DNA from: Leptolyngbya sp. NIES-2104
GTDB lineage: Bacteria; Cyanobacteriota; Cyanobacteriia; Leptolyngbyales; Leptolyngbyaceae
Assembly (NCBI RefSeq): GCF_001485215.1
Contig: NZ_BBWW01000001.1
Coordinates: 1,426,001 to 1,490,000 of the forward strand
Length of the DNA: 64,000 bases
Reading direction: 5' to 3'
A program made the position numbers and the translations under genes. Positions 23,831-45,007 of this stretch are shown piece after piece (the stretch's first letter is position 1; every line of letters starts with the position of its first letter). The notes under the pieces are model-generated. The model was not told the DNA's origin and did not search any database. It saw nothing but the letters and a program-made list of their open reading frames with translations.

Positions 23831-23867
23831 GACCGTATTTGAAAGATGTTCGTTTGTTGCGTCATCT

Positions 23868-23990
23868 CGCCCTGAAATGAATTTCGGGCTAATCGATGAA
23901 AGTCCTTTGAAAAGGACTAAGAGGCTGAAAATTTTTCCCAGTCTACTTCAGTAGACTTTCCACGGTTAGCCCGAAATTCATTTCAGGGCG
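23868..23990. repeat. Cruciform repeat element, copy A (REPIN-like)
   Basis: A 25-bp perfect outer stem (23868-23892 with 23966-23990) encloses two hairpins. Hairpin 1 at 23901-23918 is AGTCCTT-TGAA-AAGGACT; hairpin 2 at 23940-23957 is AGTCTAC-TTCA-GTAGACT. The loops TGAA and TTCA are reverse complements of each other, so the whole unit is roughly symmetric. A second unit with the same internal plan but different stem sequences lies at 44767-44894. Confidence 0.85.
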
Positions 23991-24049
23991 GGAGGCAATC
24001 GAAGCGAAGAGACTTTCTAAACTCCCTATACTGAATTGGTCTTTAAGCG

Positions 24050-30517: not shown

Positions 30518-32227
30518 ATGAGCTATCGCATGAATCGCCGCGCCTATGCCGAAACCTTTGGTCCGACTGTGGGCGATCGAGTCCGTCTCGCTGACACCGA
30601 ACTGATCATCGAAGTCGAACAAGATTTAACGACTTATGGCGATGAAGTGAAATTCGGCGGCGGTAAAGTGATTCGTGATGGTATGGGACAATCTCCGATT
30701 ACCAATGAAGATGGCGCAGTCGATGCGGTAATTACCAATGCGCTGATTCTCGATTGGTGGGGGATTGTAAAAGCGGATGTGGGAATTAAAAATGGCAAGA
30801 TTTGCGCGATCGGGAAAGCCGGAAATCCCTATATTCAAGACAATGTAACCATCATCATCGGACCCGGAACCGAAGCGATCGCGGGTGAAGGGATGATTCT
30901 CACCGCTGGCGGCATTGATACGCACATTCACTTTATCTGTCCGCAGCAGATCGAAGTTGCGATCGCATCGGGTATTACAACAATGATCGGCGGTGGAACC
31001 GGACCCGCAGCGGGAACGAACGCCACCACTTGCACTCCAGGACCTTGGTACATTCATCAAATGCTACGAGCGGCTGAAGCATTCCCGATGAATCTAGGCT
31101 TTTTAGGCAAAGGAAATGCCAGCCAACCCGATGCACTCGAAGAACAGATTAAAGCGGGTGCAATGGGATTGAAGCTACACGAAGATTGGGGAACGACACC
31201 AGCCGCGATCGATACTTGTCTGAGTGTTGCTGATGACTATGATGTGCAGGTTGCCATTCACACGGATACTTTGAATGAAGCGGGCTTTGTCGAAGATACG
31301 ATCGCGGCTTTCAAAAATCGTGTGATTCACACCTATCACACCGAAGGGGCAGGCGGCGGACACGCTCCAGACATCATCAAAGTTTGCGGCGAAGCGAATG
31401 TGCTTCCCTCTTCGACCAATCCAACACGACCTTACACATTAAATACTTTAGATGAACACTTAGATATGTTGATGGTCTGTCACCATCTTGATCCGAGCAT
31501 TCCTGAAGATGTCGCCTTTGCAGAATCGCGGATTCGACGAGAAACGATCGCGGCTGAAGATATTTTGCATGACATGGGTGCGTTTAGTATGTTATCTTCG
31601 GACTCGCAAGCAATGGGACGCATCGGAGAGGTAATCATTCGGACGTGGCAGACCGGGCACAAGATGAAAGTACAGCGGGGAGCCTTGTCGGAAGATAGCG
31701 ATCGACATGATAATTTTCGAGCTAAACGCTATGTTGCCAAGTACACGATCAATCCTGCAATCACGCATGGTATTGCTGAACATGTGGGATCAGTCGAGGT
31801 AGGTAAGTTAGCAGATCTCTGTCTGTGGCGACCTGCAATGTTTGGTGTGAAGCCAGAGATGGTGATCAAAGGCGGAATGATTGCTTGGGCACAGATGGGA
31901 GATGCAAATGCCAGTATTCCGACTCCGCAGCCTGTTCATATGCGCCCGATGTTCGGTAGTTTTGGAAGTGCGATCGCGCCGATCTCCCTAACCTTCGTTT
32001 CTCAAGCATCTTTGAAAAAGGGCGGACTCGATTCACTCAATCTCAATCGTGCGTTAGTGCCCGTTTCTGGAATTCGCAGCTTAACGAAACGCGATATGAA
32101 ACTCAATGATGCGATGCCTCACATGGAAGTGGATGCAGAAACTTATGAGGTTCGAGCCGATGGAGAACTCTTAACTTGTGAACCAGCAACAGTTCTACCA
32201 ATGGCACAGCGATATTTTCTGTTCTAG
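30518..32227 (+). CDS. ureC: Urease subunit alpha
   Basis: Catalytic subunit of urease, hydrolysing urea to ammonia and carbamate with two nickel ions. 569 residues, standard length. Diagnostic elements: HIHFICPQQ (nickel histidines), KLHEDWG with the carbamylated lysine near residue 219, [22 protein letters not shown] and the flap [14 protein letters not shown]. ureA, ureB and accessory genes are not in this window; in many cyanobacteria the urease genes are scattered, so this is a stand-alone ureC. Confidence 0.97.
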
Positions 32228-41987: not shown

Positions 41988-42132
41988 GGCACGCTGAGCG
42001 GCTTCGGCGGGCATTCTGGCTCAGAGAAGTAATCTCATCACAGTTGCGGGACAGCGGTAGCTTTGCACTACTCTTTCCCCGTTACCTCTAGCGACTGCTT
42101 CCCGCTAGAACCGATGCAAACCTCAGCGTACC
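41988..42132 (-). promoter_or_regulatory. Cobalamin (B12) riboswitch controlling cbiMNQO
   Basis: The minus-strand leader contains the conserved core GCGGGAAGCAG ... GCTGTCCCGCAACTGTGA, and near its 3' end GAGCCAGAATGCCCGCC, matching the cobalamin aptamer elements. P1 is an 11-bp stem between 42122-42132 and 41988-41998 with one G-U pair. Immediately downstream, TCAGCGTGCCATGCTGA can form a hairpin that shares the P1 3' arm, a good switching helix. A perfect TTGAGCA-AAA-TGCTCAA hairpin lies just upstream at 42143-42159 and may terminate malQ. Confidence 0.9.
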
Positions 42133-44630: not shown

Positions 44631-44657
44631 AAACCCTCCGAATCGATCGGAGGGTTT
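44631..44657 (+). terminator. Intrinsic terminator after ridA
   Basis: AAACCCTCCGA (44631-44641) and TCGGAGGGTTT (44647-44657) form an 11-bp stem with A-rich 5' and T-rich 3' flanks. Confidence 0.8.
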
Positions 44658-44766
44658 AAAGTCATTAGACCTTTTGCGTGAGTCCGAAATGCTCACCGAA
44701 TAGAATAATACCGGTGGCGAATTCGACCTCAGCATCGTTCGCAGTGTCTGCGCTGCGTTGTCCGTC

Positions 44767-44912
44767 CGCGCCGGAATGAATTCGGCGCTCCTCCAAGCGA
44801 AGTCAGTTGAAACTGACTGGAGCGTTTGCCGTTCCCTCTTCAGTCCTGTTCACAGGACTTCGCCTGGGGGAGCGCCGAATTCTATTCCGGCGCGGATCTA
44901 TTCCGGCGCGGA
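44767..44912. repeat. Cruciform repeat element, copy B, with a tandem 16-bp duplication
   Basis: Outer arms 44767-44790 and 44870-44894 are near-perfect complements, differing by one inserted base. Hairpin 1 at 44801-44818 is AGTCAGT-TGAA-ACTGACT; hairpin 2 at 44842-44859 is AGTCCTG-TTCA-CAGGACT. The design equals copy A at 23868 although stem sequences differ. The end of the 3' arm is duplicated: a 16-bp unit TCTATTCCGGCGCGGA occurs at 44881-44896 and again at 44897-44912. The rest of 44658-45007 has no gene that I can support. Confidence 0.85.
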
Positions 44913-45007
44913 TCAGTGCAACGAACGAGGGATTTGTGATCATTTTTTCAATTTGCCACCAGTATTATTCGCCCAGGCGTTCACGCAAGAAGTCTAGGGT
45001 TTGCTAC

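Follow-up and report, generated by a model that had tools for sequence, protein, structure and literature searches.

A four-hairpin, probably REP-like repeat within IS5-type element ends in Leptolyngbya sp. NIES-2104

Analysis of the window, the whole 64,000-nucleotide stretch of the Leptolyngbya sp. NIES-2104 genome considered here, revealed two structured repeats, copies A and B, each lying between convergent open reading frames (ORFs). The core of copy A is bounded by two arms of 25 bp (forward strand, 23868–23892 and 23966–23990) that are perfect complements of each other and enclose two inner hairpins, also on the forward strand and of a kind whose stems covary: H1 (AGTCCTTTGAAAAGGACT, read as AGTC CTT TGAA AAG GACT; 23901–23918) and H2 (AGTCTACTTCAGTAGACT, read as AGTC TAC TTCA GTA GACT; 23940–23957). 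Each arm also forms a hairpin of its own. The left arm includes the complement of a TTAG tag, and in the right arm TTAG itself stands just before the hairpin (23966–23969), in agreement with a TKAG consensus from 188 half-units of other genomes and in a position comparable to that of the guide tetranucleotide of REPs. The perfect arms and the two AGTC hairpins had been recognised in the first-pass annotation and are borne out here, while the coordinates it assigned, 23868–23990, cover the core only; alignment with other copies and a search for terminal inverted repeats place the core within a MITE-like element of ~198 bp with degenerate ends, spanning about 23831–24028. The left terminal inverted repeat is a degenerate GAGGRTGTTTGAAAAG (23831–23846, forward strand) with five mismatches to the family end, and the right one (24013–24028, reverse strand) is likewise degenerate, with four; an end search found no matching TNA duplication in the flanks of copy A.

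Copy B has the same plan on the forward strand, with a left arm at 44766–44791, H1 at 44801–44818 (AGTC AGT TGAA ACT GACT), H2 at 44842–44859 (AGTC CTG TTCA CAG GACT) and a right arm at 44869–44895, its arms being complementary throughout apart from a single additional base in the right-hand one. The core of copy B shares 73–75% identity with the ten other places in the genome that match it best, copies of the subfamily F2 (below) among them, and its outer flanks (44655–44741 and 44899–45005) recurred in no other match when 40 of 120 candidates were scored. Both copies are strongly folded, with z-scores of −11.18 for copy A and −11.44 for copy B that none of 200 shuffles equalled in either case.

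The repeat is abundant in the genome. The strict two-hairpin pattern AGTCNNN-TGAA-NNNGACT N10-40 AGTCNNN-TTCA-NNNGACT, which leaves the three stem bases free and overlooks elements with other loops, occurred 82 times and its backwards control not once; a repeat confined to the two copies in the window, an outcome that the first-pass annotation had allowed for, was thus not what the genome search found. Single AGTC hairpins numbered 156 forward and 164 reverse (0 and 1 in the controls), and a BLAST search with copy A gave 80 matches from the 40 scored of 227 first-look candidates, every place matching on both strands because the element is nearly palindromic. Two inverted hairpin units are present in many intergenic copies in this genome: by simple ORF calls, 60 of 63 sampled copies lay between ORFs and three inside an ORF call, a setting that may reflect tolerance rather than function. 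Among the matches listed, four places showed the same loop orientation in both hairpins (G000, contig C1: 279500/279539, 1324125/1324164, 1606239/1606278 and 1906611/1906650), as would result from in-place inversion of one loop.

Comparison of 172 cores, clustered at 90% identity into 41 clusters (eight from this genome) that are not independent events, revealed that the variable stem bases change in a paired manner, as the first-pass annotation had proposed from copies A and B. The free stem bases were paired in 95.9% of cases for H1 and 97.6% for H2, compared to shuffle means of 52.9% and 53.3%, and the linkers were paired in 71.2% compared to 55.6%; sliding the partner by one or two positions lowered the pairing of H1, H2 and linker to 27–43%. 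All three free positions paired in 141 of the 148 hairpins of 74 distinct cores from other genomes (L062–L158), and two paired in the other seven. Pairing of H1 with H2 showed no signal over the 41 clusters (55.3% compared to 53.7% in shuffles), and a rod formed by these two hairpins was rejected. Both arms formed their own hairpin in 25 of the 41 clusters, and in 16 of these fewer than 18 of 24 positions matched between the two arms. The selected structure is thus a series of separate hairpins rather than a long rod. The complementarity of the two loops, also pointed out in the first-pass annotation, is present, but it follows from the dyad symmetry of the element, H2 being an inverted H1, and hence gives no independent sign of loop-loop contact.

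A single mismatch within the three free pairs was found in 24 of 98 sampled hairpins of this genome and in 12 of 254 from other genomes, a higher frequency here that fits relaxed selection, although these hairpins are non-independent because the difference probably goes back largely to one founder mismatch in F2. In F2 copies (e.g. L032, L035), the stem of H2, AGTCCCCTTCAGTGGACT, contains a C-T mismatch, which sets it apart from most hairpins of other genomes.

Outside the core, many copies in this genome share a frame. Alignment of 30 copies in a common orientation (L027, which lacks the anchor word, was left out) gave the outer ends GAGGRTGTTTGAAAAG...CTTTTCAAACAYCCTC with TNA at the flanks, and defined a subfamily, F1, whose H2 is that of copy A and of which copy A is a degenerate member. 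A search for these ends at 45 loci of this genome, excluding duplicates and copies without both ends placed, yielded 28 distinct copies with at most five mismatches at each end, a few of them F2; both ends of 21 of these had at most two mismatches. In this well-preserved group, 15 of 21 copies had identical 3-nt flanks, compared to 0 of 21 in offset controls, and 18 of 21 had TNA on both sides. The four F1 copies measured were 206–209 bp long. Comparison with a same-genus genome (G403) revealed the empty site of one copy, L029, where the joined flanks match positions 13–600 of the query at 85% and the element is absent; further same-genus genomes matched one side or separate places. In another genome (G402; L354, about 416–603), a different stretch of ~186 bp occupies the place of L029.

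The genome also contains an insertion sequence (IS) with the ends of F1. Among its 15 DUF4096 matches, seven loci (L050–L056) have GAGGGTGTTTGAAAAG on one side and the same end with one base changed on the other, 915 bp apart; they share the 16-bp end GAGGRTGTTTGAAAAG with F1, and all seven copies are flanked by matching TNA triplets. The IS encodes an IS5-family transposase (NF033580, 209.7 bits, cut-off 110), and one IS copy, L050, sits at the end of element copy L026. From these shared ends and duplications, the IS5 transposase is likely the mover of F1 in this genome. F2 differs in its H2, its arms and its ends, which are near CTAGGGYGTGTTTTAAARCC, and no fitting partner was found for it among the seven DUF4096 loci checked for inverted ends (the 15 less the seven of F1 type and less L048).

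Terminal repeats, TNA duplications and a partner IS in the same genome could explain the spread of F1 here by themselves, which is the case for a plain IS5-derived MITE, in which the terminal repeats alone would matter and the internal palindromes would be inherited filler without function. The more frequent hairpin mismatches in this genome, non-independent as they are, also look as if the interior were less constrained here. We nevertheless regard such a MITE as an unlikely explanation: the hairpin covariation over 41 clusters disfavours it, and the same core, with compensated stem changes, is found in other genomes between the other ends GACYTCTTGCAAAA, TGTCAACTTAA and TACGASTTTTTCACTTA, as well as beside Y1 transposase genes in cores that lack a two-sided frame (L140, judged by eye, and L248, the same place as L215).

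In the phylum to which the window belongs, judged from named loci to be Cyanobacteriota, 12 of 386 genomes contained strict cores, this genome included. Among the matches listed, they occurred in Nostoc, Microcoleus, Oscillatoriales and other cyanobacteria, and in metagenome-assembled genomes (MAGs) labelled Chloroflexota, Poribacteria, Prevotellaceae, KSB1 and Gracilibacteria; beyond the phylum sample, the contig scan is an uneven sample that gives an "at least" distribution, and contamination may lie behind the MAG labels. A search for frame ends with at most two mismatches around 63 cores from the six genomes richest in loci, 11 of these cores being close to an end of the extracted DNA, found both ends around 7 of 9 cores in USR001, 10 of 14 in KVJ20, 11 of 12 in NMS8 and 8 of 11 in CHAB 5715, all with TGTCAACTTAA; around 10 of 10 in Desmonostoc, nine with GACYTCTTGCAAAA and one with TGTCAACTTAA; and around 3 of 7 in Poribacteria, with TACGASTTTTTCACTTA. 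At random places within these loci, such ends were found in 17 of 1260 cases. TA was present on both sides of eight of nine Desmonostoc copies, and two of three Poribacteria copies had 7-bp duplications. GACYTCTTGCAAAA, TGTCAACTTAA and TACGASTTTTTCACTTA are putative ends of DDE transposons. One genome has a PF01609 locus (G101, L306) where a 920-bp stretch contains two ORFs and carries GACCTCTTGCAAAA at each end, and no IS with TGTCAACTTAA on both sides was found among 30 of 85 PF01609 matches in four genomes.

Several TGTCAACTTAA-framed copies (among L090, L110, L135, L167 and others) sit at the centre of a further inverted repeat, for example ACGGCAATGCCCATTG / CAATGGGCATTGCC, which suggests that these copies prefer to insert into palindromes. 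In a Poribacteria MAG, three copies (L119, L136 and L197) have one element end exchanged for another shared sequence, GGTCGGCTGCCCCCTCAAAGTTC, and are possibly recombinant.

Analysis of Y1 transposases in the 11 other core-positive genomes, sampled as 30 loci and 20 chosen stretches, connected the AGTC hairpins with one gene group. An AGTC hairpin lay within 700 bp of 11 of 52 Y1 frames, three of the 11 being repeats of one gene and the 52 including repeats or pieces of single genes. The tree was built from 36 proteins after removal of three identical proteins and, by choice, of 12 rows (three gene duplicates, the others fragments or weak, distant matches; the fragments and weak rows had no AGTC hairpin). 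In it, a 12-row clade comprised exactly the rows with the motif Y...Q..HH (12 of 12, compared to 0 of 24 outside). Its subclade a consists of L140, L215, L229, L232, L233 and the remnant from this genome, and AGTC hairpins occur within 700 bp of all five intact rows, flanking four of them on both sides and L229 on one; three of the six rows of subclade b have an AGTC hairpin. None of the 24 IS200-like rows of the tree had AGTC hairpins nearby, and a general companionship of these hairpins with IS200-like Y1 genes was rejected.

A profile built from the five subclade-a sequences (A1) matched 34 of 386 genomes at E 1e-20. With a locus search for perfect stems and loops of 3–5 nt, AGTC hairpins were present in 21 of the 26 loci scoring at least 173 bits (16 of 21 once the five profile sequences are set aside) and absent from the other five, and six scrambled tags together produced a single hit in the same 26 loci; six of these 26 subclade-a genes carry a stop. 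AGTC hairpins were also present in four of eight sister-type loci, in one of nine weaker non-cyanobacterial loci and not in the one weak Nostoc locus. The profile was matched in 9 of 12 core-positive genomes compared to 25 of 374 core-negative ones (Fisher p 2e-8, kinship ignored). Because the nine include the broken gene of this genome and four genomes with the sister type alone (G129, G195, G336 and G338), an intact subclade-a gene is present in just 4 of 12 (G099, G101, G245 and G382), and three (G039, G068 and G153) had no profile match at E 1e-20. Of 14 genomes reached via core loci, seven, including Poribacteria, Nostoc KVJ20 and three of five Chloroflexota, gave no match at E 1e-10, and three of the seven matches in the others score like subclade a, one with a stop. 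The enzyme was therefore not found in every genome that carries the elements. A REP family can persist after its enzyme has gone, and this patchy presence thus weakens, without ending, the case for a partnership with the Y1 group.

This genome itself contains a single Y1 match (C1:1776063-1776401), which carries one TGA, scores 128.3 bits and covers profile positions 27–138 of 148; its 3.3-kb locus contains no strict AGTC hairpin. The remnant groups with subclade a (96/93), on a long branch, and joining it to the sister subclade instead is compatible with the data (p-AU 0.145). The idea of a canonical RAYT in this genome was rejected, the sole Y1 match being truncated and having a stop, which is also what became of the search for a RAYT gene that the first-pass annotation had proposed.

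A canonical REPIN moved by a RAYT (TnpA_REP, class 2), the explanation offered in that annotation, would account for the inverted dimer, the largely intergenic copies and the Y1 genes found amid such hairpins elsewhere. The part of the proposal that stands is a REP/REPIN-like core, which is supported because AGTC hairpins surround one Y1 gene group in other cyanobacteria. The canonical enzyme is highly improbable, and for this genome largely refuted by its broken Y1 gene. Four of the five associated enzymes scanned scored 22.9–25.8 bits with the REP_Tyr_transpos model (cut-off 80) and the fifth had no match, whereas all five passed the IS200/IS605 model (75.5–96.1 bits, cut-off 55). The consensus at the hairpin foot is TKAG (TTAG in copy A) and not GT[AG]G or CGTC, and the TNA duplications at F1 also argue against this mover. 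In the 188 half-units of other genomes, the TKAG positions were T in 85%, T or G in 84%, A in 87% and G in 84%; an automatic call places the foot of the arm hairpin at two positions, so the foot, and likewise the tag, is not sharply defined.

Strong folding and covariation, together with the convergent ORFs around copies A and B, would also be expected of a structured RNA or mRNA 3'-end element, whose hairpins would be selected in transcripts as stabilisers or terminators, and convergent gaps are indeed more frequent among the intergenic copies of this genome (19 of 60) than among window gaps of at least 100 bp (3 of 24, with 12 tandem and 9 divergent). The remaining copies, 33 tandem and 8 divergent, argue against such a role, as does the near symmetry of the element, by which both strands fold alike. 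No Rfam gathering match was found at copy A or B with 4227 families, so that the structured-RNA alternative of the first-pass annotation was not borne out, and it would leave both the target duplications and the association with Y1 genes unexplained; we consider an RNA element very doubtful, although a secondary effect on mRNA could exist. Least credible is an internally deleted IS200/IS605-type element whose halves would be the left and right IS ends with the gene lost: hairpin ends are typical of that family and the associated enzymes pass its model, but in the four loci read no Y1 gene was seen between H1 and H2, the gene lying outside whole elements in L140, L215 and L232 and facing the arms in L233.

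We propose, with a probability of roughly 0.7, that the repeat is the REP-like core of a TnpA_Y1 subclass 1.2 transposase, captured in this genome by an IS5-family transposase, and not a canonical REPIN/RAYT system. The core would consist of an arm hairpin, a linker with the TKAG tag, an AGTC hairpin and a spacer, followed by the mirror image of these, and would form a REPIN-like dimer of compound REP half-units owned by HUH transposases of subclass 1.2. These enzymes would act on the hairpins in single-stranded form, binding and processing them, the AGTC hairpin presumably having a part in this mechanism and TKAG being a natural candidate for the guide tetranucleotide. A tetranucleotide 5' of the hairpin guides single-stranded DNA cleavage by HUH transposases of this kind, according to two published accounts (PMC6006769, PMC8266576). 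In this genome, TnpA_Y1 would have decayed to the truncated remnant with a stop, and F1, copy A included, which now lies between IS5-family terminal inverted repeats, would be spread in trans by the DDE transposase of the IS5-family element, leaving TNA target duplications. Taken across genomes, the core would represent a widespread class of REP-like elements of an orphan HUH lineage, TnpA_Y1 subclass 1.2. This class would have switched mover repeatedly, with at least three apparently DDE-type frames distinguished by end sequence and by target duplication (TNA in this genome, TA in Desmonostoc, 7 bp in Poribacteria), and would still be spreading where the HUH enzyme is broken or not found; we hold the chances for and against this wider proposal to be about even.

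Like REPIN/BIME elements with TnpA_REP, the element is an inverted hairpin pair in many intergenic copies and has a Y1 gene amid the elements elsewhere; unlike them, it has two hairpins per half-unit, TKAG instead of GTAG, a DDE-type frame in this genome and an IS200-like enzyme that appears to fit subclass 1.2 and not class 2. In its length of 206–209 bp, 16-bp terminal repeats, TNA duplication and same-genome partner, F1 resembles IS5-family MITEs, from which it differs by an interior made of a conserved, covarying four-hairpin core common to elements with other ends. Nezha is said to be a cyanobacterial MITE, to go by the title of a 2008 article by Zhou et al., and small dispersed repeats are reportedly very small mobile repeats of cyanobacterial genomes, to go by a title of Elhai et al. 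from the same year; in both cases the likeness to our element is one of titles. The titles and abstracts seen in the literature contained no description of the four-hairpin element, and an earlier one is possible, Nezha and the small dispersed repeats being known by title.

By motifs and length, which are not the published profiles of the subclass, the associated enzymes would belong with TnpA_Y1 subclass 1.2: they share the Y---Q--HH pattern, the HUH and WQ motifs and the occurrence in Cyanobacteria given in the published description (PMC6006769), and their length of about 136–150 amino acids agrees with the median of 148 given there. That subclass was tabulated in 2018 with "no" under REP and described as lacking IS properties, "generally" without IS200-type terminal structures (Quentin et al., PMC6006769). 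Unlike the subclass as described there, such genes are surrounded here by AGTC hairpin elements. If these four-hairpin elements are the substrate of subclass 1.2, the orphan lineage would become directly testable in vitro. In its composite form, one non-autonomous element would have been served by two chemically unrelated systems, a single-strand HUH and a double-strand DDE transposase, a case that would bear on the survival of repeat families beyond their transposase.

Two Rfam matches were found elsewhere in the window, both on the reverse strand: 5_ureB_sRNA at 30671–30957 (115.2 bits), possibly by homology to a ureB gene alone, and a Cobalamin riboswitch match at 41989–42130 (51.8 bits). 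Among the Y1 genes, L206, L216 and L226 of subclade b lie amid another compound repeat with a GTAG-preceded hairpin, for example TTTGTTTGTGTAG followed by CCGCGATTTCAATCGCCG.
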